Below are positions 20,117-34,101 of a DNA stretch of 44,787 bases, piece after piece. The stretch comes from Acidimicrobiia bacterium (lineage in GTDB: Bacteria > Actinomycetota > Acidimicrobiia > Spongiisociales > ZC4RG35). Under the pieces are notes generated by a model, which saw only the letters and a program-made list of their open reading frames with translations, was not told where the DNA came from and did not search any database. A program made the translations under genes and the position numbers. Position 1 is the first letter of the stretch; the number at the start of each line of letters is the position of its first letter. The stretch lies in assembly GCA_025928935.1 (NCBI GenBank), contig JAICNB010000020.1:1-44787 (forward strand). Reading direction: 5' to 3'.

Positions 20117-20907
20117 ATTTCGGCGAGGCAAGCGCAGTCACCCCGGGTGAGGAGGGAGTCTGGAAGGCCGAGGTCCAGCCGGACTGGGACATCTTCGGTG
20201 TCAGCAATGGCGGCTACCTGATGGCGATCGGGGCACGGGCCATGTCCGGGTCTTCCCAAGACAGACGGCCGGTGAGCCTCACCGCCCATTTCCTACGGCC
20301 CCTCTCGGCCGGGCCGGTCGAGGTCGCAGTGGACACCCTCAAGACGGGTCGCACCTTCTCCACCATGCGGGCCACGATCGGCGCTGCCTCGGATTCGGTG
20401 GCCCTATTGGGCAGCTTCGCCGACCCTGGTGCACTGGATGCAGAGGACCTCTACGTCGGCGCTCGACCGCCCGATCTGCCCCCACCCGACGAATGCCCTC
20501 GGGCCATCCCCTCGCCAGACGGCCCGCTCCCCCCTCCCATCGTGGGCCAGTTCGAGGAGCGCATCCACCCCGAAGACGCAGGCCCGCTCCAGGGTCGCCC
20601 CAGCGGCGTGGCCCGGATGCGCGGCTGGTTCCGGCTCGACCATGAAGAGCCGATCGACGCCTTCACACTCCTCCTCGTCGCCGACGCGTTCCCACCGGCG
20701 GTCTTCAATGCCGATCTACCGCTGGCCTGGACGCCCACACTCGAGATGACCACTCAGGTGAGGGCGGTTCCGGCCGGGGGCTGGCTGCGCTGTCAATTCA
20801 CCACCAGGTTCGTGAGTGGCGGGTTGCTAGAGGAGGACGGTGAGATCTGGGACGTAAGTGGGCGACTCGTGGCCCTCTCCCGTCAGCTAGCCCTCGTCCC
20901 CCGCTGA
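20113..20907 (+). CDS. Acyl-CoA thioesterase-like double-hotdog protein (TesB-like)
   Basis: A 264-residue protein resembling the two-domain thioesterase superfamily: an N-terminal hotdog with WDIFGVSNGGYLMAIGARAM and SLTAHFLRPLSAGPVEV, and a C-terminal hotdog beginning around MRGWFRLDHEEPID with PPAVFNADLP. It probably hydrolyses a medium- or long-chain acyl-CoA; the exact substrate is unclear. The ATG overlaps the purM stop (ATGA), so it is co-translated with purM although no link to purine synthesis is evident. Its last 21 bases overlap the convergent adenine deaminase gene. Confidence 0.72.
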   Translation: MNFGEASAVTPGEEGVWKAEVQPDWDIFGVSNGGYLMAIGARAMSGSSQDRRPVSLTAHFLRPLSAGPVEVAVDTLKTGRTFSTMRATIGAASDSVALLGSFADPGALDAEDLYVGARPPDLPPPDECPRAIPSPDGPLPPPIVGQFEERIHPEDAGPLQGRPSGVARMRGWFRLDHEEPIDAFTLLLVADAFPPAVFNADLPLAWTPTLEMTTQVRAVPAGGWLRCQFTTRFVSGGLLEEDGEIWDVSGRLVALSRQLALVPR

Positions 20908-21906
20908 GACCGCCTCCAACTCCTCGACCAGAGCGGTCTTGCGTGGCCCGTCCAGGAAAGAGGACTCGATCGAGTTCCGGGCCAGGGCGATGATGGTCTC
21001 CTCCCCCAGCCCGAAGGCCTGTTGTGCCTTGCGGTAGTTGTCACCGATGTAGCCACCGAAATATGCCGGGTCATCCGAGTTGATGGACACGAGAAGACCG
21101 GCGTCCATCATGGCGGACAGCGGGTGAAGCGACATGTCCTCGACTACATGCAGCGCCACATTGGACAGCGGGCAGACCGTGAGCGGGATCTGCTCACGTC
21201 GCAACCGGTCGACGAGATCGGCATCCTCGAGACTCCTCACTCCGTGGTCGATCCGCTCGGCACCCAGCGCGTCCAGGGCGCCGCTCACGTACTCGGGTGG
21301 CCCCTCTTCGCCGGCGTGCGCAACCGCACGCAGCCCGAGCTCCCGAGCGCGGGCATAGGCCTCCTCGAACAGTTCCGGGGGGCGACCCCTCTCCGACGAG
21401 TCGATCCCCACCCCGATGACCCCATCGAGGAAGGGCTCCGCCTCCATTATCGTCGCCACCGCCTCTTCACCTGAGAGGTGGCGAAGAAAGCACAGGATCA
21501 GGTCGGCGCTTATCCCGAGTCTGCGTCGGGCATCGGAGATCGCGTCACGAAAGCCCCTCATGAATATCTCGAACCCGATGCCCCGGGCGGTGTGGCTCTG
21601 CGGGTCGAAGAAGATTTCGGCGTGCCGCACCCCGTCACCGGCGGCCTTCTCGAGGTAAGCAGCCATGAGGTCATAGAAGTCGTCCGGTGTCCTGAGGAGC
21701 GCCGCCCCCTGGTAGTAGATGTCGAGGAACGACTGCAGGTTGGTGAACCGATAAGCGGCCCGCACCTCCTCCACGTCGGCGTAGGGGAGGTCGACGCCGT
21801 TCCTGGCGGCGAGAGCGAACATCATCTGCGGTTCGAGAGTGCCCTCGATGTGGACATGGAGCTCCGTCTTGGGCAGTCGGCCGGCCAGATCGCTCAATCC
21901 GGCCAT
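20887..21906 (-). CDS. Adenine deaminase (adenosine-deaminase-like, ADE type)
   Basis: Expected to deaminate adenine to hypoxanthine, feeding xanthine dehydrogenase. The 339-residue TIM-barrel amidohydrolase has the zinc HxH (ELHVHIEGTLEP), VAHAGEEGPPEYV with the metal histidine and catalytic glutamate, ERIDHGVR, PLTVCPLSN and the zinc aspartate pair in SINSDDPAYFGGY. The segments FFDPQSHTARGI, DSSERGRPP and DDPAYFGGY match bacterial and fungal adenine deaminases of this fold more closely than adenosine deaminases. The ATG at 21906 is one base past the xdhA stop, so it is the last gene of the xanthine dehydrogenase operon. Confidence 0.83.
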   Translation of the reverse strand: MAGLSDLAGRLPKTELHVHIEGTLEPQMMFALAARNGVDLPYADVEEVRAAYRFTNLQSFLDIYYQGAALLRTPDDFYDLMAAYLEKAAGDGVRHAEIFFDPQSHTARGIGFEIFMRGFRDAISDARRRLGISADLILCFLRHLSGEEAVATIMEAEPFLDGVIGVGIDSSERGRPPELFEEAYARARELGLRAVAHAGEEGPPEYVSGALDALGAERIDHGVRSLEDADLVDRLRREQIPLTVCPLSNVALHVVEDMSLHPLSAMMDAGLLVSINSDDPAYFGGYIGDNYRKAQQAFGLGEETIIALARNSIESSFLDGPRKTALVEELEAVSAGDEG

Positions 21907-21907
21907 G

Positions 21908-24133
21908 TCACGGCAGTGCAATGTCTTGGGGGCGGACCGGGACCCTCTCGATCTCCCGACCGGAGGCGGCTCGGATGGCGGCGGCTACGGCGGCAGTGGA
22001 CGAGATGGTGGGTGGCTCCCCAACGCCCTTTGCCCCGTAGGGGCCCCATGAGCCCTCCTGCTCGATGAGCAAGGCCTCGACCTCGGGGGCATCCAGAATC
22101 GTGGGCAGCAGATAGTCGGTGAAGGTCGGGTTGAGGATGACACCCTCTCCCATCACCAGCTCCTCCATCACCGCCAGCCCCACGCCCTGGAGGATGCCAC
22201 CTTCGATCTGGCCCCGCACCGACTGTGGGTTGAGAGCCAGCCCCACGTCCTGGGCGGTGTCGACTCGCAACACCTTGACCAGGCCGAGCTCGACATCCAC
22301 GTCGACAACCGCCCTGTGCCCGGCAACTGCGAAATCGGCGTGCGCCACTCCCTGACCGTTGTCGTCGGTCATTGTGGTGGGCGGGTGTCTGAAGGTGACC
22401 GTCTCCTCCCAGTCCCCGGCCGCCAGAGCGGTCCATGGTGTCACCAGAGTGTCTCCTCGCCAGACACCCTCATCGTCGAGCACGTCACCATCGAACTGCC
22501 CCAGGATCCGCTCCCTGAGACGTTGCGCCGCCTCCAGGGTGGCCCCTCCCGAGACCTGGGTCTGACGGGACGCCGAGGTCGAGCCTGCCGAATCGATCTT
22601 CGACGTGTCGACATGGGCCACCTCGACGTGGCTGATGCCCAATGCGCTGCGGGCGATCTGGGCCAGGACGGTGACCAGGCCCTGACCGACCTCGATCGCT
22701 GCGGTCTCGACCACGGCGCCGCTGTCAGTGATCCTTACCCGGGCCTGGGCATAGTCATCAGAGCCCTCGGAGAAGCCCAGATTCTTGATCCCCAGTGCGT
22801 AGCCCACTCCCCTGGTCACATGCTGCGGCTCACTGGTCAGACCCGATCCGCCGGGTAGCTCGGTTGGGAGATCGCTCGGGCCCGCCTCGGGCAATGGCAT
22901 GGCCTGGAGGCTCTTGATCACCTCCACGGTGGGAAGGGGGGTCTGGATCACCTGGCCGGTGGTTGCCAGCGGGTGACCTGTCTCCAGCGCGTTGATCTCG
23001 CGCAGGGTGAGAGGATCCATTTCCAGGGCGTGGGCGAGACGGTCCATCTGCGACTCGTAGCCAAAGCACACCTGGACTGCCCCGAATCCCCTCATCGCCC
23101 CGCATGGCGGGTTGTTGGTTCGCACCCCCACCCCGTCGACGGCTACCGAGTCGCATGTGTAGGGGCCGACTGCGAAGTAGCAGGCATTGGCCAGAACGGC
23201 GGAGGTGGTAGAGGCATAGGCCCCCCCATCGAGGACGACACTCGCCTCGACTCTGACCAGACGACCGTCCCGATCGGCCTCGTGCCGGTAGCGGAGCCAT
23301 GCCGGGTGCCGGTGGACATGGCCTGTGAACGACTCCGATCGCCTGTAGACCATCTTCACCGGCCGGCCGGTGTGAAGGGCGAGCATGCACAGATGGATAT
23401 GGAGGTTCACGTCCTCCCTGGCGCCGAAGGCGCCGCCGATGCCGGTGGGGTGGGACCGAACCTGGTCGGGGCGGAGACCGAGGCTGGCCACGACCTGCTC
23501 CTGGTCGACATGGACGTACTGGCTGGTGGCATAGAGATCGACCCCGCCCTGACCATCGGGAACCGCCAGACCCGCCTCCGTGCCGAGCGGTGCCTGGTCC
23601 TGCATCCCTACCTCGTATTCACCCTCGACGACGACGGCGCCGCGCACGCTTTGGTCTCCACGACGGATGCGCATACGCCGGAAGACCTCGTCGCGCCGGT
23701 TCGCCTCTTCGGGGTCGGTCAGGGCTTCGAGCGGCTCGTACCCCACCTCGATGGCCGCTGCAGCACGTCGTGCCGTGTCGAGGTCCTCTGCGGCGACCAC
23801 GGCCACCGGCTCGCCCCAGAACCGGGCTTCCTGGGCCGCCAGCACCGGCTGATCGGGATGCTCCAGGCCAAACGTCGCCCGCCCGGGCACATCGTCGGCG
23901 GTCAGACAGGCATGGACTCCACCGATGGCCAGGGCAGGGGCGATATCGATGGATGCGATGCGCGCTCGGGCGTGTGGGCTGCGGACCGTCGCCGCCCAGA
24001 GCATGCCCTCGGCAGCGAGATCCTGCGCGTATTCGAACCTGCCCTGGAGCTTGGGAATCCCATCGGGACGCAATGGCGAGGTCCCGACGACACCCTGCGG
24101 GGTGCCGACCTTCCTCCCGGTGCGGGTGCTCAT
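21908..24133 (-). CDS. xdhA: Xanthine dehydrogenase, molybdopterin-binding subunit
   Basis: The large 741-residue catalytic subunit oxidises hypoxanthine to xanthine and xanthine to urate. Landmarks are GIGGAFGAREDVN and MRGFGAVQVCFGYE (molybdopterin and substrate region), EVGQGLVTVLAQIA, and the catalytic glutamate E706 in KGVGEPPT. It overlaps the Fe-S subunit gene by 4 bases (ATGA at 24130-24133) and is one base before the adenine deaminase start, so the order is xdhB-xdhC-xdhA-deaminase in one operon. The xanthine assignment rests on the purine context; the fold is shared with other molybdenum hydroxylases. No XdhC-type insertion chaperone is in the window. Symbols follow E. coli usage (A = Mo, B = FAD, C = Fe-S). 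Confidence 0.87.
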   Translation of the reverse strand: MSTRTGRKVGTPQGVVGTSPLRPDGIPKLQGRFEYAQDLAAEGMLWAATVRSPHARARIASIDIAPALAIGGVHACLTADDVPGRATFGLEHPDQPVLAAQEARFWGEPVAVVAAEDLDTARRAAAAIEVGYEPLEALTDPEEANRRDEVFRRMRIRRGDQSVRGAVVVEGEYEVGMQDQAPLGTEAGLAVPDGQGGVDLYATSQYVHVDQEQVVASLGLRPDQVRSHPTGIGGAFGAREDVNLHIHLCMLALHTGRPVKMVYRRSESFTGHVHRHPAWLRYRHEADRDGRLVRVEASVVLDGGAYASTTSAVLANACYFAVGPYTCDSVAVDGVGVRTNNPPCGAMRGFGAVQVCFGYESQMDRLAHALEMDPLTLREINALETGHPLATTGQVIQTPLPTVEVIKSLQAMPLPEAGPSDLPTELPGGSGLTSEPQHVTRGVGYALGIKNLGFSEGSDDYAQARVRITDSGAVVETAAIEVGQGLVTVLAQIARSALGISHVEVAHVDTSKIDSAGSTSASRQTQVSGGATLEAAQRLRERILGQFDGDVLDDEGVWRGDTLVTPWTALAAGDWEETVTFRHPPTTMTDDNGQGVAHADFAVAGHRAVVDVDVELGLVKVLRVDTAQDVGLALNPQSVRGQIEGGILQGVGLAVMEELVMGEGVILNPTFTDYLLPTILDAPEVEALLIEQEGSWGPYGAKGVGEPPTISSTAAVAAAIRAASGREIERVPVRPQDIALP

Positions 24134-24594
24134 CGGTCAGCCACGATCTCGGCGCCTTCCAGGGCTCGCACGATCGCGCCGTATCCGGTGCAGCGGCATA
24201 TGTTGCCGGCCAGAGCCTCTTTGATCTCGGTGGCGGTCGGGTGCGGGTTCACAGCGAAGAGATCGGCCGCGGCGACCACGATCCCCGGGGTGCAGAACCC
24301 ACACTGGACGGCGCCGGCCCGATGCATAGCCTCCTGGACAGGATGGAGCGCGCCGGGCTCAGAGATGCCCTCGACCGTGGTCACCGCCGAGCCATGGGCA
24401 TCGGCCGCCAGCACCAGGCAGGAGCAGACCAAGGCTCCGTCGAGGATGACCGAGCACGAACCGCATTCTCCCTGCTCACAGGCGCTCTTGGAACCAGGGA
24501 GACCGAGGTCGTCGCGAAGGAGATCGAGAAGGCTTCCCGGGTGGTTGACCCGGGCTGTCACCGGCTCTCCGTTGACCGTGAGCTCGACGATCAT
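24130..24594 (-). CDS. xdhC: Xanthine dehydrogenase, 2Fe-2S subunit
   Basis: The 154-residue subunit binds two 2Fe-2S clusters that pass electrons from molybdenum to FAD. The first, plant-ferredoxin-like site is CEQGECGSC plus a later cysteine (LVCSC). The second is QCGFCTPG with NICRCTGY. The ATG at 24594 overlaps the stop of the FAD subunit (ATGA), and the 3' end overlaps the molybdenum subunit in the same way. A longer open frame upstream lies inside xdhB in another frame and is not real. Confidence 0.92.
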   Translation of the reverse strand: MIVELTVNGEPVTARVNHPGSLLDLLRDDLGLPGSKSACEQGECGSCSVILDGALVCSCLVLAADAHGSAVTTVEGISEPGALHPVQEAMHRAGAVQCGFCTPGIVVAAADLFAVNPHPTATEIKEALAGNICRCTGYGAIVRALEGAEIVADR

Positions 24595-25385
24595 CTCAGG
24601 CACCGCTCCAAGAGACGACGAGCCAGAACGCCGGCGCCATGCCTCCGGTACTCCTCGGTGGACCTGTGGTCGGTGATGGGACGGACCTCCTCGGAGACGA
24701 GGCGCTGGAATTCGGCCAGATCGGCGTCCGTCGGTTTGGCGGCCGAGGAGATCATCGTCTCGGCGCGTGGGGCACGTATGGGGGTAGGCGCCACCGATCC
24801 CAGTCCGACGGTGGTGCGCCCGTCCTCGGATCTGGTGACCACAGCGCAGACGGTCGCGATCACCATTGCGTTGCGTATCCCGATCTTCCCGAAGGCCTGC
24901 CGTTCCGGCAGCTCGTCGGGGAGCTCGACTGCAGTGATCAGCTCGTCCGGGGCACGCGCGGTCTTCTTCACCCCGACGAAGAACTCGTCCCATGCGACGA
25001 GACGGCTCCCCCCTGCCGAGGTCAGCTCGATCGAGGCGTCGACGGCGGCCAGGAAGGGGTGGCCGTCACCGGCCGGGCTGGCCGTGCCCAGATTGCCGCC
25101 GATCGTCCCGGCGTTCCGGATTTGGGGAGAGCCGACCGTGCGGGCGGCCTCGGCCAGGGCCGTGGGCCCTTCCTTCTCGATCCGGCGCCAGGTGACGCCG
25201 GCCCCGATACGGGAACCATCCCATTCCCTAAGGGGCTCGAGTCTGCGCAGGCCTACGACGTTTTCGGGCCTGACGTGCCCGAAGTTGACCTCCACCATGA
25301 GATCGGTCCCGCCGGCAAGCGGGACCGCCCCATCGCTCAACCCGGCGATTGCCTCTTCGATCGACCTCGGGTGAACGATCTCCAC
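24591..25385 (-). CDS. xdhB: Xanthine dehydrogenase, FAD-binding subunit
   Basis: The 264-residue subunit of the CO dehydrogenase/XDH medium-chain family has the FAD loops PLAGGTDLMVEVNFG and AGTIGGNLGTASPAGD, and the C-terminal domain with VAPTPIRAPRAE. It passes electrons to NAD. GTG 25385 gives the standard N-terminus (VEIVHPRSIEEA); a TAACTT -10-like element lies 9 bases upstream, so the xdh genes may have an internal promoter besides read-through from the 8-oxoguanine deaminase gene that ends 88 bases upstream. Confidence 0.9.
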   Translation of the reverse strand: MEIVHPRSIEEAIAGLSDGAVPLAGGTDLMVEVNFGHVRPENVVGLRRLEPLREWDGSRIGAGVTWRRIEKEGPTALAEAARTVGSPQIRNAGTIGGNLGTASPAGDGHPFLAAVDASIELTSAGGSRLVAWDEFFVGVKKTARAPDELITAVELPDELPERQAFGKIGIRNAMVIATVCAVVTRSEDGRTTVGLGSVAPTPIRAPRAETMISSAAKPTDADLAEFQRLVSEEVRPITDHRSTEEYRRHGAGVLARRLLERCLR

Positions 25386-25473: not shown

Positions 25474-26829
25474 TCACAGAAGCGTCGCCGCCAGACGGTT
25501 GTGCTCCCGGACCAGGTCCGCAACGTCCAGACCGGTCAGCCGGCCGTCCTCGACCACCCGCCGGCCGCCCACCCAGGAGTGGTCGACGGTGACCGGGGCG
25601 CACATGACCACGGCGGCCACAGGGTCGTGCCGTGCCCCAGCGAACTCGACCCGGTCGAGGTGGTAGGCGACGAGATCGGCGCACCGGCCCGGCACCAGCA
25701 TCCCGATGTCTTCCCGACCCAACACCTGTGCCCCACCCACGGTGGCCAGGCCCAACGCCTGGCGCGCCGTCATCTGCGGGCCAGACCCAATGCCGGGCGA
25801 CACGGCAAGGCGGTTGAGGAGGAGGGCCTGGCGGGTCTCGTTCATCAGGTGCGACGAATCGTTGGAGGCAGATCCGTCGACCCCCAGCCCGACGGGGACG
25901 CCGGCGCCGAGATAGCGGGACACCGGGGCCACGCCAGAGGCGAGACGCATGTTCGACGTGGGGCAATGGGCGACCCCGGTCCCGGCATGCCCCATCCGGG
26001 TGACCTCGTCGTCGGCGACGTGCACGGCATGGGCGTACCAGACATCGGGCCCGGCCCAGCCGAGGTCCTCCAGGTATTGCACCGGTCGACTTCCGAACGC
26101 ACCCAGGCAGAACGCCTCCTCGTCGGCGGTCTCGGCGAGATGCGTGTGCATCGTCACCCCCAACTCACGAGCGAGCTCCGCTGTCGCCGTCATCAGCGTG
26201 CCCGTGACAGTGAACGGGGAGCAGGGGGCCAGGACCACCCTGGACATCGACCCCGGCGCAGGGTCGTGATACATCTCGACGACCCGCCGCGAGTCCTCGA
26301 GGATCAGCTGCTCCGGCTCCACCACGGGGTCGGGGGGAAGCCCACCGTCGGATTCGCCCAGGCTCATCGAGCCGCGTGAGACGTGAAACCGGATCCCGAC
26401 CGCGATGGAGCCCTCGATCTGGTCGTCGACCCGGGAGCCGTTGGGCCACAGGTAGTGATGGTCGAAGGCGGTTGTGCAGCCGCTCAGGGCGAGCTCGGCG
26501 AGCCCGAGCCGGGTGGAGATCCGGACGTGGTCCGGGGTCATCCGGGCCCAGATCGGGTAGAGGGCGCGAAGCCAGTCAAAAAGCCCGGAGTCCTGTGCTG
26601 CCGGCACCACCCGGGTCAGCGTCTGATACAGATGGTGATGTGTGTTGATCAGGCCGGGAAGCACCACATGGCCGCTCAAATCGACCATCTCGTCGGCCGT
26701 GGCGGGGAGCTCTGCGGTCGGACCGACCTCCTCGATCCACCCGTCGCGGGCAAACAGAGCACCGTCGGCGATCTCCGCCCCGCCCATTGTCACCAGGACT
26801 TCGGCATGACGGACGAGGAGGGTTCCCAT
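25474..26829 (-). CDS. 8-oxoguanine deaminase (amidohydrolase)
   Basis: Expected to convert 8-oxoguanine to urate, so an oxidised base enters purine catabolism directly. The 451-residue amidohydrolase has the metal motif NTHHHLYQTLTR, then AQDSGLFDWLRALYPIWAR, RGSMSLGESDGGLPPD, VLAPCSPFTV, MHTHLAET, VAHCPTSNMRLASG and LGVDGSASND. The segments around RGSMSLG and HCP(C/T)SNMRLASG recall the characterised Pseudomonas 8-oxoguanine deaminase more than guanine deaminase or AtzA/TrzN. The ATG at 26829 is preferred to one three codons upstream because TAGCTT (26843-26838) lies 8 bases before it. It is the first gene of the xdh operon and diverges from the DUF6986 gene. Confidence 0.8.
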   Translation of the reverse strand: MGTLLVRHAEVLVTMGGAEIADGALFARDGWIEEVGPTAELPATADEMVDLSGHVVLPGLINTHHHLYQTLTRVVPAAQDSGLFDWLRALYPIWARMTPDHVRISTRLGLAELALSGCTTAFDHHYLWPNGSRVDDQIEGSIAVGIRFHVSRGSMSLGESDGGLPPDPVVEPEQLILEDSRRVVEMYHDPAPGSMSRVVLAPCSPFTVTGTLMTATAELARELGVTMHTHLAETADEEAFCLGAFGSRPVQYLEDLGWAGPDVWYAHAVHVADDEVTRMGHAGTGVAHCPTSNMRLASGVAPVSRYLGAGVPVGLGVDGSASNDSSHLMNETRQALLLNRLAVSPGIGSGPQMTARQALGLATVGGAQVLGREDIGMLVPGRCADLVAYHLDRVEFAGARHDPVAAVVMCAPVTVDHSWVGGRRVVEDGRLTGLDVADLVREHNRLAATLL

Positions 26830-26866
26830 CGGCACCAAAGCTAACGGCTGGCTTTAATCGCCGGGC
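26830..26866. promoter_or_regulatory. Divergent promoter of the 8-oxoguanine deaminase/xdh operon and the DUF6986 gene
   Basis: Only 37 bases separate the two starts. On the minus strand GTTAGCTTTGG holds the TAGCTT -10 element (26843-26838); on the plus strand GCTTTAATCG offers a TTTAAT element 8 bases before the DUF6986 ATG. The two elements are parts of an imperfect palindrome, AAAGCTAACGGCTGGCTTT (26837-26855), so one bound regulator could control both directions. Confidence 0.5.
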
Positions 26867-28192
26867 ATGACCTTGCGTGACGACTCGTTGGCCCGCTGGG
26901 AGCAGAGACTGGGGGCGGTCTCCGCCCGTCTCGGGACCGACTTCCCCGGTGAGGGGCCGGAGCGCCAGCCGGTACACACCGTGTACGGGGGTGCCCACCT
27001 CTTCGCCGCCAGCACCGCGAAGCGACTGGGAGAGCTCTCCCTCGTCGCACTCGACCGCTGGGCGCCATCCGCATCCGAGCTGGCATCGGTCCTCGGGCTC
27101 CCCGACGATCTGGCCTCACGCGTGCACGCCCTGGTGGTCGCCAAGCTGGAGCGGGAGCCAGTCGAGGATTTCCGGATCGACTTCGAGGACGGGTACGGCC
27201 ACCGCCCCGATGACGAGGAGGACGGGCACGCCCGATCAGCGGCACTGGAACTGGCCACGGGGATGAAGACGGGCGGCCTCCCTCCATTCACGGGGATCAG
27301 GATCAAGTCGCTCTCTGCCGAGTTGCACCGTCGCGCCCTCCGCACTCTCGACCTGTTCGTCACTGCTGCGGTGGACGACGGTGGACGTCTCCCGCCAGGG
27401 TTCACAGTGACGCTGCCCAAGATCCAGGACCGTGAGCAGGTGGTGGTCCTCTGCGAAGCCCTCGAGGAGCTCGAGGCGGGATTGGGCATCGAGCCGATCC
27501 CGATCGAGCTCATGGTGGAGACACCTCAGACCATCCTCGACCGAGACGGGACCGCCGGGATCCGCAAGTTCGTCGACGCAGCGCGGGGCCGGGTCCGTGG
27601 CGCGCATTTCGGCACCTACGACTACACCGCGTCACTCACCATCACCGCGGCATATCAGACCATGACCCATCCCGCCTGTGACTTCGCCCGGCACGCCCTT
27701 CAGGTCAGCCTGGCCGGCACGGGGGTGTGGATCTCGGATGGGGCCACCAATGTGATGCCCGTGCCACCGCATCGCGGAGACGGACTGACTGCAGCCCAGA
27801 TGGAGGAGAACACGAAGACAGTCCATGAAGCGATGAGTCTCCACTACGACCACATCCGCCATTCGCTGACCCACGCCTACTACCAGGGCTGGGACCTCCA
27901 CCCTGCCCAGTTCCCCACCCGTTACGCCGCGGTGTACGCCTTCTTCCTCGAGGGTCTCGACCAGGCCGGGGCGCGTCTCTCCAACTTCGTCGATTCGGCG
28001 GCCAAGGCGACACTGGTCGGCGAGGTCTTCGATGACGCGGCCACCGGCCAGGGACTGCTCAACTACTTCCTGCGGGCGATCAACTGTGGTGCCATCGACG
28101 AGGACGAGGCGACCTCGAGGACCGGTCTGACCCTGGACGAGATCCAGACCCGATCGTTCCTCGCCATCCTCGAGGGGAGGACCGGCAGCTAG
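26867..28192 (+). CDS. HpcH/HpaI aldolase-like protein, DUF6986 family (ureide-associated)
   Basis: A 441-residue protein of the PEP/pyruvate-type TIM-barrel superfamily that includes HpaI aldolase, citrate lyase beta and malyl-CoA lyase. It resembles the actinobacterial family often annotated as aldolase, phosphoenolpyruvate kinase or DUF6986. Visible landmarks: QPVHTVYGGAHLF, RIDFEDGYGHRPDDEED, FTVTLPKI, E218 in MVETPQTI and D252 in HFGTYDYTAS (the expected metal ligands), and QGWDLHPAQFPTRYAAVYAFF. I recall relatives near urate oxidase genes in other actinobacteria, and here it sits between the xdh and ureide operons. A reaction on glyoxylate or a ureidoglycolate-derived compound is plausible but unproven. 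Confidence 0.75.
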   Translation: MTLRDDSLARWEQRLGAVSARLGTDFPGEGPERQPVHTVYGGAHLFAASTAKRLGELSLVALDRWAPSASELASVLGLPDDLASRVHALVVAKLEREPVEDFRIDFEDGYGHRPDDEEDGHARSAALELATGMKTGGLPPFTGIRIKSLSAELHRRALRTLDLFVTAAVDDGGRLPPGFTVTLPKIQDREQVVVLCEALEELEAGLGIEPIPIELMVETPQTILDRDGTAGIRKFVDAARGRVRGAHFGTYDYTASLTITAAYQTMTHPACDFARHALQVSLAGTGVWISDGATNVMPVPPHRGDGLTAAQMEENTKTVHEAMSLHYDHIRHSLTHAYYQGWDLHPAQFPTRYAAVYAFFLEGLDQAGARLSNFVDSAAKATLVGEVFDDAATGQGLLNYFLRAINCGAIDEDEATSRTGLTLDEIQTRSFLAILEGRTGS

Positions 28193-28259: not shown

Positions 28260-29087
28260 TCACCGGGTGACGGTGAACCCGATGTCCCCGTAGGGCTCGC
28301 TCACCGGTTGGAAGACAACGCCCTGGTCTTCCATCCCGAACCGGGACAGGTCGTAGTTGAGGTGGTGCTGATTGGGGAGGCGGAACTCCACCTCCTCGAT
28401 CTCCTCAACCGTCCCCAACAAGGCCTCGGCCATCATCCAGCCCTGATGCTGCACCGACGCCGAATGCTCGGAGAAAAAGCTGTCGATCATGCTTTGACGG
28501 GCCTTCTCCCAGGTCGCAGTGGTGTTCGCCGGCGTGACCGAATAGCGCCACACCGCCTTGACCGACGTGGCCAGGATTCGCTCCTCGGTCTCGGGCAGCA
28601 CGGTGAACTCGTCGCGTGGGAACCCCGAGAAGGCCGATCCGGTGGTCTTCAGGACCACCATCCCGTCCACTCCCGCCCACACCCCGGCTGTGGCGCCGTC
28701 GGTGGTCGCCACCGCAACCCGGGCCAGCCGGCGACCCGAGCCGCCGTCGATGAAGCTGGAGGGCCCGACCCGGTCCCAGATTCGCTCCGACACCGAGACG
28801 TCGGCTGTGGTGATGCCATCACGCTCGAGGAAGTGGTCACAGAGCACGGCCGCGAACGCCTCGAGATCCCGGGTCAGGTGCTCCTGGGCGAGGCCGTACA
28901 CGGTGTTCTTCATCGTGTCGGTGGGGAGCACACCCCGGTTGTCACCGAGAACGTGGGCCGCCTCGACATCGCCCTGGAGCAGCAGTTGCACGGTCAGGTC
29001 CAGGAAGTCGTCACCCGACTCGGAGCGGTGGATCTTCGAGACCCGGACATCCGACTTGCCCCAGCGGTTCTCGCCGAGACGCGCCAT
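28260..29087 (-). CDS. uox: Urate oxidase (uricase)
   Basis: Cofactor-free oxidation of urate to 5-hydroxyisourate. The 275-residue protein has the two T-fold domains of uricase: WGKSDVRVSKIHR near the N-terminus (catalytic lysine region), PTDTMKNTVYGLA (catalytic threonine), LKTTGSAFSGFPRDEFT, and NQHHLNYDLSRFGM near the C-terminus. It has no type 1 peroxisomal C-terminal tripeptide (ends FTVTR), as expected in bacteria. The ATG shares a base with the HIU hydrolase stop (TGATG). It is the last gene of the ureide operon. Confidence 0.93.
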   Translation of the reverse strand: MARLGENRWGKSDVRVSKIHRSESGDDFLDLTVQLLLQGDVEAAHVLGDNRGVLPTDTMKNTVYGLAQEHLTRDLEAFAAVLCDHFLERDGITTADVSVSERIWDRVGPSSFIDGGSGRRLARVAVATTDGATAGVWAGVDGMVVLKTTGSAFSGFPRDEFTVLPETEERILATSVKAVWRYSVTPANTTATWEKARQSMIDSFFSEHSASVQHQGWMMAEALLGTVEEIEEVEFRLPNQHHLNYDLSRFGMEDQGVVFQPVSEPYGDIGFTVTR

Positions 29088-29404
29088 CAGCTCCCCCGGT
29101 AGGTGGTATAGCCGTACCCGCTGAGCAGAAGGGGGACGTGATAGTGCCCCCTGTCCTCGTCGATGTCGACGATCACATGTACCTCGGGGTAGAAGTCGTT
29201 CCCGGCGTCCCCGGTCGCAAAGACCAGGCGGTAGATGCCCGAGCCGAGGGCGAAGCCGAGGGCGGCCACCCTCCCATCCTCGTCGGTGACCCCTTCCCCG
29301 ACATACTGCCAGGCCCCATCCGACGAGCGCTCGAGGGTCACGACGACACCCACGGCCGGGGAGCCGGTAGTGGTGTCGAGGACATGGGTGCTGATGCCGG
29401 TCAC
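29087..29404 (-). CDS. uraH: 5-hydroxyisourate hydrolase (transthyretin-like)
   Basis: Hydrolyses 5-hydroxyisourate, the uricase product, to OHCU. The 105-residue protein begins with the family signature ISTHVLDTTTG (catalytic histidine), contains YHVPLLLS, and ends with the diagnostic YRGS tetrapeptide. It lacks a signal peptide, so it is cytoplasmic. It overlaps the fusion gene by 4 bases (ATGA) and urate oxidase by one, so the three enzymes acting on successive intermediates are translated together. Confidence 0.94.
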   Translation of the reverse strand: MTGISTHVLDTTTGSPAVGVVVTLERSSDGAWQYVGEGVTDEDGRVAALGFALGSGIYRLVFATGDAGNDFYPEVHVIVDIDEDRGHYHVPLLLSGYGYTTYRGS

Positions 29405-30834
29405 GGGGCTTCCCCTACGCAGAGCATGCGCCGCAGTCTGGTCTCTGTGATGGCCCGCTGCTCCCTTGCCGCGTTGGCGATCTCCTCTTCGGTCTCGTTG
29501 CCGAGACGGGAACGTGCGTCAGAGAGCATTTCCTCCGCAGTCTTGCCCGTGGCGAACACGATGTAGGTGAAGCCGTGGGCACGCTCATAGGCGAGATTGA
29601 CCTTGCTCAGCTCCGCCAGGACCGACTCGTCTGCCCCGGCGGTGCCGCTCTGCTCCCGGTCGGCGACCCGGTCTCCCCTCTCGCCGATGCGGGGATGGCC
29701 GGCGAAAGCATCCATCCAGTCGGCCTCGGACAGTGTCTCGAAGACAGTCGAGGCCTTGGTGAAGAGGGATTCGACGTCCGGATAGGGCCGGCCCGTCGTC
29801 ATCTCGTCGACCCAGGCCCTGGAAGCGCAGGCGGTGGCGAAGAAGCGACGTGCCTCCTCGTCGAACAGGGAGTTGAGGTAGAGCAAGCGGAGCCGTCCCG
29901 CTCCCTCGCCGTCGGGCCTTCCCCGTACCCGGAGACGAGCCACCCCCCCGTCGGGATGGATGTCGAGACGCAGATGGCCGCCGTGCCTGGGGTGTTCGAG
30001 ATGGACGGGATTGACCGCATCCGGCTTCACCTCGGCCCGGGTGACCACCTCGTTCCAAGTCGACCCGTCATCCGACAGATGGATCGAGACCCAACCCGGC
30101 GAGTTGCCGCGGAAAAACCGCGTGTCGACCTCGACCGATTCGATCACCCCGGGCAGGCCGAGGCGAAAGGTCGCCCAGTCGTGGCCGGGCCCACGACGTC
30201 GCTTCGTCTCCCAGCCATCCCACATTCCGGCCGGCTCGGTGGGACGAAGCATGTTCGAGGGCGGCGAGTAGTGGAAGTCGGATGCGTCGGTCGCTTCGCC
30301 ACCCACGAGGGAGGAGGCCAGGTCGGTCCCACCGCCGTCCGGGCAGACCTGGCTCATCATCGGGATGGGGTCGCCCTCCACCCGGAGCCGGGCCACCCCT
30401 CCGTCCGGATAGATGTTGAGACGTAGATGGGTTACCCGATGGGAGTCGAGGACATCGAATGTCGCCACCGAGTCACCTGCCAGAGCGGTGGTCGGGATGA
30501 GCTCTTCCCAGGTCGCCGACGCCAGCCTGTCCTCGTCCCCGGTCCCGCATGCCTCGAGGGAGAAGGACTCGGGGTAGTTGCCGGTGAAGTGCGACGTGTC
30601 CACCGTCACCGTCCGGACCACGCCTGGTATCCCGAGGGCGACGACACACCAGTCGTGGCCGGGCTCTCGGCGCCTACGGGTCTCCCAACCGTCCATCCAC
30701 TTGCCGCGGTCGGTATAGGCGCCTTCCTTCCACACCGGATCGGACACCTGGAGCAGATTGTGGGCCTCGGCGAAGAACTCGTCGTTGCAGGCCACAACCC
30801 GGCCGCCGACGGCCTCAGAGATCAGGTCTTTCAT
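29401..30834 (-). CDS. Allantoicase - OHCU decarboxylase fusion protein
   Basis: Two steps of ureide breakdown in one 477-residue chain. Residues 1-308 are allantoicase, made of two homologous repeats: MDGWETRRRREPGHDW near 47-62 and WDGWETKRRRGPGHDW near 205-220. It hydrolyses allantoate to ureidoglycolate plus urea. Residues about 319-477 are OHCU decarboxylase (UraD), with the catalytic HPRIGE at 380-385 and FATGK at 427-431; it produces S-allantoin. I place the start at the ATG at 30834 because allantoicases begin with this DLISEAVGGRVVACNDEFF stretch; ATGs at 30855 and 30879 are alternatives deeper in allB. It overlaps allB by 20 bases. Confidence 0.88.
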   Translation of the reverse strand: MKDLISEAVGGRVVACNDEFFAEAHNLLQVSDPVWKEGAYTDRGKWMDGWETRRRREPGHDWCVVALGIPGVVRTVTVDTSHFTGNYPESFSLEACGTGDEDRLASATWEELIPTTALAGDSVATFDVLDSHRVTHLRLNIYPDGGVARLRVEGDPIPMMSQVCPDGGGTDLASSLVGGEATDASDFHYSPPSNMLRPTEPAGMWDGWETKRRRGPGHDWATFRLGLPGVIESVEVDTRFFRGNSPGWVSIHLSDDGSTWNEVVTRAEVKPDAVNPVHLEHPRHGGHLRLDIHPDGGVARLRVRGRPDGEGAGRLRLLYLNSLFDEEARRFFATACASRAWVDEMTTGRPYPDVESLFTKASTVFETLSEADWMDAFAGHPRIGERGDRVADREQSGTAGADESVLAELSKVNLAYERAHGFTYIVFATGKTAEEMLSDARSRLGNETEEEIANAAREQRAITETRLRRMLCVGEAP

Positions 30835-32131
30835 CGCGTAGCAACATCCTGCCATCACCACCGTGGATGGAGCCACCATCGAACACAGTGACCCCGCCCA
30901 GGATCGTCATCACCACCGAGCCGCGCAGCCTCATCCCCTCGTAGGGAGTGATCGGGTGCCGGTGCTCGAGACGTGCTCCTTCGACGTCGGTGACGCCATC
31001 GGGGTCCCACACCACGAGGTCCCCGTCCATTCCCACCGCAATCTGGCCTTTGTGGAGGTCTAGCCCGGCGAGACGGGCCGGCTCGGACGCCAGCCATCGG
31101 CTCATCTGCGGGAGCGAGAGGCCTCGCTCCACCGCCCCCGTCCACGTGGCGGCGAGACGTAATTGAAGCGAGCCGATACCGCCCCAGGCCCGTGCGAAGT
31201 CCCCGTCCTCCAAGCGCTTGATATCCGCCGGGGCAGGCGAGTGATCGGAGACGACCATGCTCAGTGCCCCCTCGACGAGCCCGCTCCAGAGAGCTTCGCG
31301 GTGCTCGGCCGACCTGATCGGCGGGGCGCATTTGAAGGCTGTCGCGCCGTTCTCGATCTCCTCCGAGCAGAAGATGAGGTAATGCGGGCACGTCTCGCCG
31401 GTCAGCGTGGGCGGGCCTTCGGACAACACCGCCACCGCCTCACCCGACGAAACGTGGAGCACGTGGATGCGGGCCCCAGTGGCCCTGGCCATCCGGGCAA
31501 CGCCGGACACGGCCTCCGCCTCGGCGTTCGGCGGTCTCGAGGCCAGGTACGACCCGTATTCGGCCGGATCGCCGACGACGACCGAAATCCGGGCGGGGTC
31601 CTCGGCGTGCACCAGCGCAGGCACGTCGAGGTCCCTCATCTCGGGTAGCGCCCCGAGCAGCTCATCGGGGGTGACCGGTGGGAACTCGGCCACTCCCGAG
31701 TCAACCAGGAAGGCTTTGAAGCCACACACGCCCTCCGCGACCAGGGGGCCGATCTGGTCGGACGATCCGGGGATGAGTCCACCCCAGAAGGCGACATCGA
31801 CGGCCAGCTTGCCCGCGGCCGCCTCCCTCTTTGCCTCCAGGGCCGCGACGCTGACCGTGGGAGGGATCGAGTTGAGCGGCATGTCGACGATCGTCGTCGT
31901 GCCTCCGCCCGCCGCAGCCCGGGTGGCGGTGGCAAAGCCCTCCCATTCGGTGCGGCCGGGCTCGTTGACGTGCACGTGGGAGTCGACCAGCCCGGGCATC
32001 ACCACCAGGTCGCCAAAATCGACTTCGGGAGCCTCCTCGCCGATTTCGACGATCGTGCCGTCGACGATCCGGAGCGAGGCGGGTCGCACCTCGTCGCCGA
32101 TCACGACCCTGGTGCTTCCGATGAGGGACAT
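30815..32131 (-). CDS. allB: Allantoinase
   Basis: Opens the allantoin ring to allantoate. The 438-residue cyclic amidohydrolase has the zinc motif DSHVHVNEPGRTEWEGF, VDMPLNSIPPTV, the lysine expected to be carboxylated in VCGFKAFLVDSGV, ETCPHYL, and VSDHSPAP with the metal aspartate. It is the first gene of the operon allB, alc-uraD, uraH, uox. TAGCTT (32143-32138) ends exactly 6 bases before the ATG, so the mRNA is probably leaderless. The -10 lies in an 11-bp inverted repeat shared with the divergent DUF308 promoter. Confidence 0.93.
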   Translation of the reverse strand: MSLIGSTRVVIGDEVRPASLRIVDGTIVEIGEEAPEVDFGDLVVMPGLVDSHVHVNEPGRTEWEGFATATRAAAGGGTTTIVDMPLNSIPPTVSVAALEAKREAAAGKLAVDVAFWGGLIPGSSDQIGPLVAEGVCGFKAFLVDSGVAEFPPVTPDELLGALPEMRDLDVPALVHAEDPARISVVVGDPAEYGSYLASRPPNAEAEAVSGVARMARATGARIHVLHVSSGEAVAVLSEGPPTLTGETCPHYLIFCSEEIENGATAFKCAPPIRSAEHREALWSGLVEGALSMVVSDHSPAPADIKRLEDGDFARAWGGIGSLQLRLAATWTGAVERGLSLPQMSRWLASEPARLAGLDLHKGQIAVGMDGDLVVWDPDGVTDVEGARLEHRHPITPYEGMRLRGSVVMTILGGVTVFDGGSIHGGDGRMLLRDERPDL

Positions 32132-32136
32132 CGACC

Positions 32137-32197
32137 CAAGCTAACTGCGGTAGGGCCTTTTCTTGCCAGCATCGGGGGATCCCGAACAGTTAGCTTG
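32137..32197. promoter_or_regulatory. Divergent allB / DUF308 promoter with an 11-bp inverted repeat
   Basis: CAAGCTAACTG (32137-32147) and CAGTTAGCTTG (32187-32197) are perfect inverted copies 39 bases apart. Each supplies the TAGCTT -10 of one direction: allB on the minus strand and DUF308 on the plus strand. The same GTTAGCTT core precedes the 8-oxoguanine deaminase gene. It may be a regulator site overlapping both promoters, or simply two copies of one strong promoter. Confidence 0.55.
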
Positions 32198-32228: not shown

Positions 32229-32753
32229 ATGGAGACGGTGACCAGTCCGGCGGATCGCACCATCAACTACGTCTTCCTGCTCGGTGGCATCGCCGCCCTG
32301 ATCTTCGGGGTCATCTTGCTGATCCGACAGGAGGAAGCCCTGGCCCTGCTGATGGTGATCCTGGGCCTCTGGTGGATGATCCAGGGGGCATTCATGTTTT
32401 TCGCCGTGTTCCTGGACCGGACCGACATGTGGTGGAAGCTGATCATCGGAGCCCTCGGTGTCGTTGCCGGTTTCCTGGTCCTCACCAACCCCGGCGAGGC
32501 CGCCGATGTATTCCAGGGTGTCATTGGGGTGATCCTGGGGGTCATCGGGATCCTGGTCGGGGTCACGTCGATCGTCGGGTCGTTCCGCGGCGGCGGAGTC
32601 GGTGCCTTCGTGTTCGGAGTGGTCAGCGTCCTGATCGGTCTCCTCGTCCTGCTCAACGCCCAGTTCTCGACGAGCCTGCTGATCACCCTGTTCGCGGTCC
32701 TCCTCCTCATCGACGGCGTGGCCGGGATCTATCTGGCCCTCAGGTACCGATAA
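32229..32753 (+). CDS. DUF308/HdeD-family membrane protein
   Basis: A 174-residue protein, almost wholly hydrophobic with about six membrane segments in three pairs (LGGIAALIFGVILLI, ALLMVILGLWWMIQGAFMFF, LIIGALGVVAGFLVL and so on), as in the HdeD/DUF308 family. In E. coli HdeD is linked to acid resistance, but most members have no known role. Unlike many genes here it has a leader: TAGCTT at 32191-32196 and AAGGAG at 32218-32223, 5 bases before the ATG. It diverges from the ureide operon. Confidence 0.78.
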   Translation: METVTSPADRTINYVFLLGGIAALIFGVILLIRQEEALALLMVILGLWWMIQGAFMFFAVFLDRTDMWWKLIIGALGVVAGFLVLTNPGEAADVFQGVIGVILGVIGILVGVTSIVGSFRGGGVGAFVFGVVSVLIGLLVLLNAQFSTSLLITLFAVLLLIDGVAGIYLALRYR

Positions 32754-32817: not shown

Positions 32818-34101
32818 ATGTCCGATTTCCTGACACGACACAACGACCTATTGGCCCCGGTGCTCGCCTTCGACACCGAGATACATGCAGTCAAGGCCGA
32901 GGGCCTCTGGATCACCGATGTCGAGGGAAGACGTTGGGCGGATTTCTCATGTGGCACCGCCGTCACCAACCTGGGGCACAACCATCCGGCCGTGATAGCG
33001 GCGGCGCATCGTCAGCTGGACAACCTGGTCCACTCCGGGTGCATCGTGCGATACGACTCGATAGTGGACGCGGCCGAGCGTCTCCGCGCCATCACGCCGC
33101 CGGGCATCGAGAAGTTCAGCTTCGCCAATTCGGGCGCGGAGGCGGTCGAGGCCGCGGTCAAGCTGGCCAAGCACACCACCGGCCGTCAAGGGGTGGTCGT
33201 GTTTCGAGGGGCGTTCCACGGTCGGACCATGGGGGCGCTCACTTACACGACGTCCAACGCCAGGTACCGCGATGGCTACCACCCCGTCCTGGGCTCGGTG
33301 TTCGTCACCCCCTACCCCCACCCCTACCGCTGGGGCATGACCGAGGACGAGGCAACGGACCTGTCATTGAACGAGCTCCACATGATGTTCAAGCATGTGG
33401 TGACACCAAAGAACATCGCCTGCTTCCTGATCGAGCCGGTGCAGGGCGAAGGCGGCTACTACCCGGCCCCGGCCCGCTTCCTCGAGGCGCTAAGGGCCAC
33501 GGCCGACGAGCACGGGATCAAGCTGATCTACGACGAGGTGCAATCCGGGTTCGGCCGCACTGCCGAATGGTTCGCCTCGGACCATTTCGACACAAAGCCC
33601 GACATCATGGCGATGGGCAAGGGCATCGCCAACGGCCTACCGCTATCCGCCTTTGGTTCGTCGAGTGAGACCATCGATGCCTGGCCGAGGGGGGCGCACG
33701 GCACCACTTATGGGGGCAACCCGGTGTCGACCGCCGCATCGGTGGCGGTCATCGACACCATGGACGGCCTCCTCCCCCACGCCCGGGAGCTGTCCAAGCG
33801 CACCTTCGAGCGTTTCAACGAAATGGCAGAGCGGCACCCCACGATCGGTGATGTCCGCGGCCTCGGTCTGATGATCGGAGTCGAACTGGTCACCGATCGC
33901 CCTAGCCGCTCCCCTGATGCGGAAGCCTTCAAACACGTCGAGAAGCATGCCTTCGACCGTGACCTGATCGTCATCAACTGCGGGCCTGACGGCAACGTCA
34001 TCCGGTTCATCCCGCCGTTGATCACCACGCGGGAGGAGCTGGACTGGGCTGTCGATCTCGTCGACGAGGGCCTGGACTCCTGGGAGAGCAAGGGCGCCTG
34101 A
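32818..34101 (+). CDS. Class III aminotransferase (4-aminobutyrate transaminase-like)
   Basis: PLP enzyme of 427 residues in the GABA/ornithine/beta-alanine aminotransferase family. It shows SCGTAVTNLGHNHP, SGAEAVEAAVKLA, FHGRTMGAL, IEPVQGEGGYYP, IYDEVQSGFGRTAEWFA, PLP lysine K268 in MAMGKGIANG, and GTTYGGNPVS. The segment order fits GabT-like enzymes best, but the amine donor cannot be fixed. TAGCAT (32806-32811) ends 6 bases before the ATG, indicating a leaderless transcript. The next gene appears to begin on the last bases of this one. Confidence 0.83.
   Translation: MSDFLTRHNDLLAPVLAFDTEIHAVKAEGLWITDVEGRRWADFSCGTAVTNLGHNHPAVIAAAHRQLDNLVHSGCIVRYDSIVDAAERLRAITPPGIEKFSFANSGAEAVEAAVKLAKHTTGRQGVVVFRGAFHGRTMGALTYTTSNARYRDGYHPVLGSVFVTPYPHPYRWGMTEDEATDLSLNELHMMFKHVVTPKNIACFLIEPVQGEGGYYPAPARFLEALRATADEHGIKLIYDEVQSGFGRTAEWFASDHFDTKPDIMAMGKGIANGLPLSAFGSSSETIDAWPRGAHGTTYGGNPVSTAASVAVIDTMDGLLPHARELSKRTFERFNEMAERHPTIGDVRGLGLMIGVELVTDRPSRSPDAEAFKHVEKHAFDRDLIVINCGPDGNVIRFIPPLITTREELDWAVDLVDEGLDSWESKGA

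Follow-up and report, generated by a model that had tools for sequence, protein, structure and literature searches.

Nitrogen is freed from ureidoglycolate by two described types of enzyme, the urea-releasing, Ni-dependent cupin AllA/DAL3 and the ammonia-releasing UAH, and the same compound is oxidised by AllD (PMC3793230). Enzymes of the CitE-like/malyl-CoA lyase superfamily share a set of catalytic residues, in R. sphaeroides numbering Asp42, Glu44, Asp45, Arg76 and the Mg ligands Glu141 and Asp168, together with a lid residue, Asp299, that comes from the neighbouring subunit (PMC3832036). In the Actinomycetota that we sampled, no gene can be recognised for the final step of urate degradation, AllA being missing wherever allantoicase is found; the same gap appears in the Streptomyces loci examined and in many of those from Acidobacteriota, Gemmatimonadota and Elusimicrobiota. 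We propose, with a probability of roughly 70%, that DUF6986 (PF22484) is a ureidoglycolate lyase unrelated to the cupin AllA, which would convert (S)-ureidoglycolate to glyoxylate and urea; the proposal draws on the phylogenetic profile, the operons and the predicted fold. Pfam records no function for the family, and its plasmid-borne members carry the RefSeq name “aldolase/citrate lyase family protein”. A search of freely accessible literature found no publication naming DUF6986 and nothing relevant linking ureidoglycolate to malyl-CoA or HpcH.

The gene studied here lies in a stretch of 44,787 nucleotides, hereafter the window (Table 1). ORF analysis shows it to be open for 441 aa from an ATG start, and its product matches PF22484 end to end (model positions 3–406 of 408, E 8.9e-175, 581.8 bits with the gathering score at 27), in line with the preliminary description, which had read it as a DUF6986 enzyme; the HpcH_HpaI match stays below threshold (22.9 bits, 25-bit cut-off). 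The gene is single-copy in this genome and is flanked by two minus-strand operons, adenosine/adenine deaminase-xdh-8-oxoguanine deaminase on the left and uox-HIUase-allantoicase/UraD-allB on the right, so that the position between purine and ureide operons described earlier is borne out by family profile matches. Here one fused protein combines allantoicase and UraD, which many other loci (L013, for example) encode separately. Divergent from allB lie a gene for a DUF308 membrane protein (32229–32753) and one for a class-III aminotransferase, both of which are kept beside ureide genes in near relatives. The former, a conserved small gene, was considered as a hidden AllA and ruled out on account of its DUF308 identity; the latter is a candidate glyoxylate aminotransferase.

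Table 1. Features of the purine/ureide region of the window and the evidence for each.
Feature	Position	Strand	Evidence
DUF6986 protein, 441 aa, proposed Mg2+-dependent ureidoglycolate lyase	26867..28192	+	PF22484, AlphaFold model, conserved catalytic residues
Divergent intergenic region, common to DUF6986 and 8-oxoguanine deaminase/xdh operon	26839..26866 (26830-26866 with deaminase ATG start)	.	ORF starts
8-oxoguanine deaminase	25474..26838	-	NF006055 662.8 bits, cut-off 532
Xanthine dehydrogenase FAD subunit	24591..25385	-	PF00941 E 3e-38
Xanthine dehydrogenase Fe-S subunit (true start probably inside ORF)	24130..24993	-	PF01799/PF00111
Xanthine dehydrogenase molybdopterin subunit	21908..24133	-	PF02738/PF20256, best model pucD
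Adenosine/adenine deaminase	20887..21921	-	NF006850 above cut-off
Urate oxidase	28260..29087	-	TIGR03383 261 bits, cut-off 168
5-hydroxyisourate hydrolase (HIUase/Transthyretin family)	29087..29404	-	PF00576 E 1.4e-30
Allantoicase fused to OHCU decarboxylase (UraD)	29401..30879	-	PF03561 + PF09349
Allantoinase AllB	30815..32131	-	TIGR03178 491 bits, cut-off 358
Class-III aminotransferase, candidate glyoxylate sink	32818..34101	+	PF00202 E 1.8e-109

Counted from the ATG of the 8-oxoguanine deaminase gene, the divergent gap to DUF6986 measures 37 bases, the length first reported; with the upstream TTG as the start, it shrinks to 28 bases. The sequence AAAGCTAACGG at 26837–26847 recurs within the window only in the allB/DUF308 intergenic region. 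Written as (A/C)AAGCTAAC(G/T)G, the element has three sites in the window where 0.01 would be expected (26837–26847, 32137–32147 and 32187–32197); these are confined to two divergent intergenic regions of purine/ureide genes and are partly conserved in near relatives. The element may be a common promoter −10 (GTTAGCTT) or an operator. Scans for sigma-70 promoters and terminators found none.

The purine genes of the window run up to allantoicase, and the encoded pathway therefore ends at ureidoglycolate. A profile search of the whole assembly (3.08 Mb, 98.5% complete) gave no match to AllA/PF04115, so that the reported lack of a recognisable ureidoglycolate lyase extends, as far as AllA goes, from the window to the assembly. 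The accompanying statement that no glyoxylate-utilising enzyme is present fits the window's neighbourhood only, where the aminotransferase should be kept in mind, and is false for the genome, in which malate synthase A adjoins isocitrate lyase on another contig (C47). The preliminary description had held that allA and malate synthase elsewhere in the genome, together with normal growth on allantoin after deletion of DUF6986, would speak against a role of DUF6986 in this step; malate synthase is there and allA is absent. Given this combination, the empty step is the conversion of ureidoglycolate to glyoxylate and not the use of glyoxylate.

AlphaFold models the window protein (pLDDT 90.1, pTM 0.88) as a TIM barrel that carries a lid at its C-terminus. 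In structural comparison, the model comes closest to R. sphaeroides malyl-CoA lyase in complex with Mg2+, glyoxylate and propionyl-CoA (4l9y; VIA-align Z 28.3 over 294 residues, 2.2 A), followed by further malyl-CoA lyases, CLYBL (Z 27.4), a haloarchaeal malate synthase and CitE (Z 22), and sequence profile searches retrieve the same relatives. To our knowledge, all functionally characterised structural relatives of DUF6986 act on CoA thioesters. Barrel and lid, structural matches and catalytic residues together place the modelled protein in the CitE-like/malyl-CoA lyase superfamily. It falls outside the curated malyl-CoA lyase family, for which divergent DUF6986 members score 18–35 bits against a cut-off of 500, and it matches neither the AllA family PF04115 nor the malate synthase barrel PF01274; in the genome, PF01274 is matched solely by the malate synthase encoded separately on contig C47, and some DUF6986 proteins elsewhere show weak PF01274 matches (about 20–30 bits).

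The residues D105, E107, D108, R145, E218 and D252 are present in 105 of 105 homologues and the lid residue D389 in 104. E218 and D252, which had been pointed out as apparent metal ligands, are invariant and align by profile with the Mg ligands of malyl-CoA lyases, and this assignment thus appears sound; the N-terminal residues were placed by the D-x-E-D and “VRV”/“IRI” motifs. Either D389 or D390 may serve as the lid Asp, position 390 being D or E among homologues. D343 of a WDLHP motif is found in 104 of 105 DUF6986 proteins, the remaining one having a gap, and is replaced by Ala, Val or Cys in the CitE-like homologues compared.

The co-occurrence of DUF6986 and allantoicase across Actinomycetota, which the preliminary description had singled out as informative, is pronounced. 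Among 296 genomes, 25 carry DUF6986, 25 carry allantoicase and 22 carry both (Fisher 5.5e-27), and AllA is present in none of the 25 genomes with allantoicase. DUF6986 was counted here only as a full-length match with E < 1e-100, a threshold that we chose because weaker matches are other CitE-like proteins. The 27-bit gathering score of Pfam also lets in many ordinary CitE-like proteins (28–55 bits, often short matches), and database counts of DUF6986 are therefore likely to be inflated. By taxonomic family, seven have both genes, two DUF6986 only and one allantoicase only among about 70 families (p = 2.6e-07), a count that leaves out one family with DUF6986 and allantoicase in different genomes. 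In genus g45, all eight genomes have both genes and the two lie far apart, a pattern repeated by Streptomyces loci from outside the 296-genome sample. Three allantoicase-positive genomes have neither AllA nor DUF6986 (L090–L093).

Core ureide genes flank DUF6986 in 33 of 80 cross-phylum loci. All 33 are among the 46 loci that remain when the main Streptomyces and Myxococcus groups, in both of which DUF6986 is unlinked to ureide genes, are set aside; AllA was found in the flanks of none of the 80. Gene orders include allB-alc-uraD-DUF6986-puuD (L013 and L039) and allB-alc/uraD-HIUase-uox-DUF6986 (L101), and DUF6986 adjoins several different upstream enzymes (allantoicase, ureidoglycine aminohydrolase, 8-oxoguanine deaminase and a PuuE-like deacetylase). 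The three DUF6986-positive actinobacterial genomes that have no allantoicase also carry the gene in ureide clusters. One of them reads (S)-ureidoglycine aminohydrolase-DUF6986-malate synthase A-malic enzyme (L094), so that DUF6986 has a ureidoglycolate-forming enzyme on one side and glyoxylate-using enzymes on the other. In another, ureidoglycine aminohydrolase adjoins DUF6986 in the company of allantoinase and hydantoin racemase (L096), and in the third, malic enzyme abuts DUF6986 near uricase, UraD and HIUase (L095). On a Tsukamurella plasmid, the order is xdh-guaD-DUF6986, and DUF6986 overlaps a gene annotated as “bifunctional allantoicase/(S)-ureidoglycine aminohydrolase”.

The urea side of the proposed reaction is represented as well. 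The row allB-alc/uraD-HIUase-uox-DUF6986-ureABC-ureF-ureG (L104) holds every step from allantoinase to urease except a named ureidoglycolate lyase, and DUF6986 is its only enzyme without an assigned function; both AllA and malate synthase are absent from that genome. DUF6986 precedes ureB and ureC in L102, and ureABC follows directly after it on Gordonia p174. On the latter (L140, 6534–8221), DUF6986 shares its first 4 bases with a gene for a PaaI-family thioesterase. Separately, weak AllA matches turned up in three Acidobacteriota genomes, and the two that were inspected lie inside nuo (NADH dehydrogenase) operons and not in ureide clusters (L116, 7780–8238; L117, 8402–8860); these distant AllA-like cupins are probably not ureidoglycolate lyases.

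Myxococcota, in which both families occur, allow the two to be compared directly. Allantoicase is present in 62 of 146 genomes, of which 45 have DUF6986 and AllA, seven DUF6986 only, eight AllA only and two neither, and AllA tracks allantoicase strictly (53 of 53). The gene allA lies beside allantoicase in all eight AllA-only genomes versus 5 of the 52 with DUF6986; taking all DUF6986-negative genomes, the ratio is 8 of 10 versus 5 of 52 (p = 1e-5, a statistic that ignores relatedness). Conversely, DUF6986 lies near allantoicase in 6 of 9 AllA-negative versus 7 of 53 AllA-positive genomes (p = 0.002, again ignoring relatedness): seven of the nine AllA-negative genomes have DUF6986, six of them near allantoicase. 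AllA and DUF6986 are never both near allantoicase. The exchange is visible at the level of single positions, since Archangium (L110) has puuD-allB-alc/uraD-HIUase-allA, with allA last after HIUase, and two loci of genomes lacking allA (L134 and L135) have alc-uraD-HIUase-DUF6986, with DUF6986 in the slot held by allA in Archangium. In most Myxococcus-type genomes, both genes are present and both are unlinked to the operon. Given the 45 of 62 genomes in which the two occur together, and the 13 of 65 DUF6986-positive Myxococcota that have no allantoicase, DUF6986 is redundant or otherwise employed in this phylum. No core ureide genes were found near DUF6986 in the allantoicase-free loci L127–L133.

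For substrate, stereochemistry, metal and mechanism, we infer the following from homology and gene context. Ureidoglycolate and malyl-CoA have in common the HOOC-CH(OH)- unit, which is the Mg2+ chelator in this barrel, and a ureidoglycolate lyase would thus result with urea as the leaving group. E218 and D252 would bind Mg2+, E107 and D108 would hold waters, and the metal would chelate the carboxylate and the hydroxyl of ureidoglycolate. R145, positioned by D105, may aid deprotonation of the hydroxyl, upon which the C-N bond would break in a retro-addition as the C-C bond of malyl-CoA does in malyl-CoA lyase. Urea would be expelled in place of the acyl-CoA enolate, after protonation by the lid Asp of the neighbouring subunit (D389 or D390). 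Glyoxylate could then pass to malate synthase, glyoxylate carboligase or an aminotransferase, and urea to urease.

The same barrel might instead capture glyoxylate: like a malyl-CoA lyase or a malate synthase, it would condense glyoxylate with an acyl-CoA such as acetyl-CoA, and ureidoglycolate would decay spontaneously or be split by another enzyme. The closest folds (malyl-CoA lyase, CLYBL and haloarchaeal malate synthase) and the full retention of the catalytic set fit such an activity, as does the presence of AllA alongside DUF6986 in most myxobacteria. The malic enzyme abutting DUF6986 in L095 and the PaaI overlap on Gordonia p174 would equally suit a malyl-CoA-forming enzyme, and the overlap counts against a ureidoglycolate lyase because thioesterase plus malyl-CoA lyase amounts in effect to a malate synthase. 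Malate synthase is absent from six actinobacterial genomes with DUF6986 (G211, G254, G296, G307, G318 and G094) and from several of other phyla. It is present, in canonical form, in 22 of the 28 actinobacterial genomes examined (25 allantoicase-positive and 3 DUF6986-only), the window's own included, once next to DUF6986 itself (L094), which makes capture less likely; in two Streptomyces loci (L088 and L089), it lies beside the allantoicase cluster. A role of DUF6986 as sole malate synthase is weakened by the same count, as most of the examined Actinomycetota with DUF6986 already have one. Glyoxylate carboligase, above cut-off in only 3 of 43 genomes (one Streptomyces, G057 and G134), is too rare to be informative as a discriminator. 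Also at odds with capture are the position of DUF6986 directly ahead of urease genes, the lack of any NCBIfam match for the window protein, and a distribution that follows allantoicase and complements the presence of AllA, not that of malate synthase. Of the two activities that the preliminary description had entertained, cleavage of ureidoglycolate is accordingly the one that gene content favours, through co-occurrence with allantoicase in the absence of AllA, operons with malate synthase or urease, and replacement of allA in some Myxococcota; we consider capture of glyoxylate unlikely.

A lyase acting on ureidoglycolate in the main pathway also has to be weighed against a side or salvage reaction on another ureide compound, such as the other ureidoglycolate stereoisomer, ureidoglycine or a toxic by-product. 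This would account for the coexistence of AllA and DUF6986 in most allantoicase-positive Myxococcota, for the persistence of DUF6986 in the 13 genomes without allantoicase and for the several different upstream enzymes that it adjoins, but it leaves unexplained why AllA is absent from all 25 allantoicase-positive Actinomycetota and why allA and DUF6986 never share an allantoicase locus, and we hold it to be rather improbable. An unrelated function, with DUF6986 as a CitE-like aldolase incidentally placed among ureide genes, would agree with the unlinked position of the gene in Streptomyces and the main Myxococcus group but is made very improbable by recurrent linkage in several phyla and by the genome-level co-occurrence statistics.

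With urea release from ureidoglycolate as the preferred reading, it also seems likely that DUF6986, which is widespread in Actinomycetota and several other phyla, represents a second kind of ureidoglycolate lyase with a structure unrelated to the first. Its malyl-CoA lyase scaffold would have been turned from C-C cleavage of a CoA thioester to breaking a C-N bond in a free ureido acid, and in many genomes without AllA the family would supply the last enzyme that bacterial urate degradation seems to lack. If so, the gap in the pathway would be closed and the family would gain a functional name; the glyoxylate-lyase barrel would be shown to accept two leaving groups, urea and an acyl-CoA enolate, and a second urea-releasing enzyme of ureidoglycolate, unrelated to AllA/DAL3, would be at hand.

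UAH (EC 3.5.3.19) belongs to an M20 metallopeptidase-like family, different from DUF6986. As proposed for DUF6986, it acts on ureidoglycolate and gives glyoxylate, but it does so hydrolytically and with release of ammonia (PMC3793230). AllA/DAL3 (PF04115, EC 4.3.2.3) shares with DUF6986 the proposed reaction and the slot in Myxococcota allantoicase operons, whereas it is a Ni-dependent cupin (PMC3793230) that has no sequence or fold relation to DUF6986 and is absent from the window's genome. The malate synthases A and G have the same barrel and the same metal/Arg/Asp catalytic set, use glyoxylate, usually accompany DUF6986 in a genome and in one case share its operon, but they are much larger and have N- and C-terminal domains of their own (PF20656 and PF20659). 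Closest are the malyl-CoA lyase/CitE-like enzymes (R. sphaeroides Mcl1 4L9Y, CLYBL and haloarchaeal malate synthase), with which DUF6986 has in common the TIM barrel with a C-terminal beta-hairpin lid, the D-x-E-D motif, the Arg, the Glu/Asp metal ligands and the lid Asp; like malyl-CoA lyase, it would split a 2-hydroxy acid to glyoxylate. It differs from them in sequence (about 15% identity), in length (some 110 residues more), in a helical insertion that separates the first two strands, in the WDLHP motif with its invariant D343, and in its proposed substrate, which would be ureidoglycolate and not a CoA thioester.
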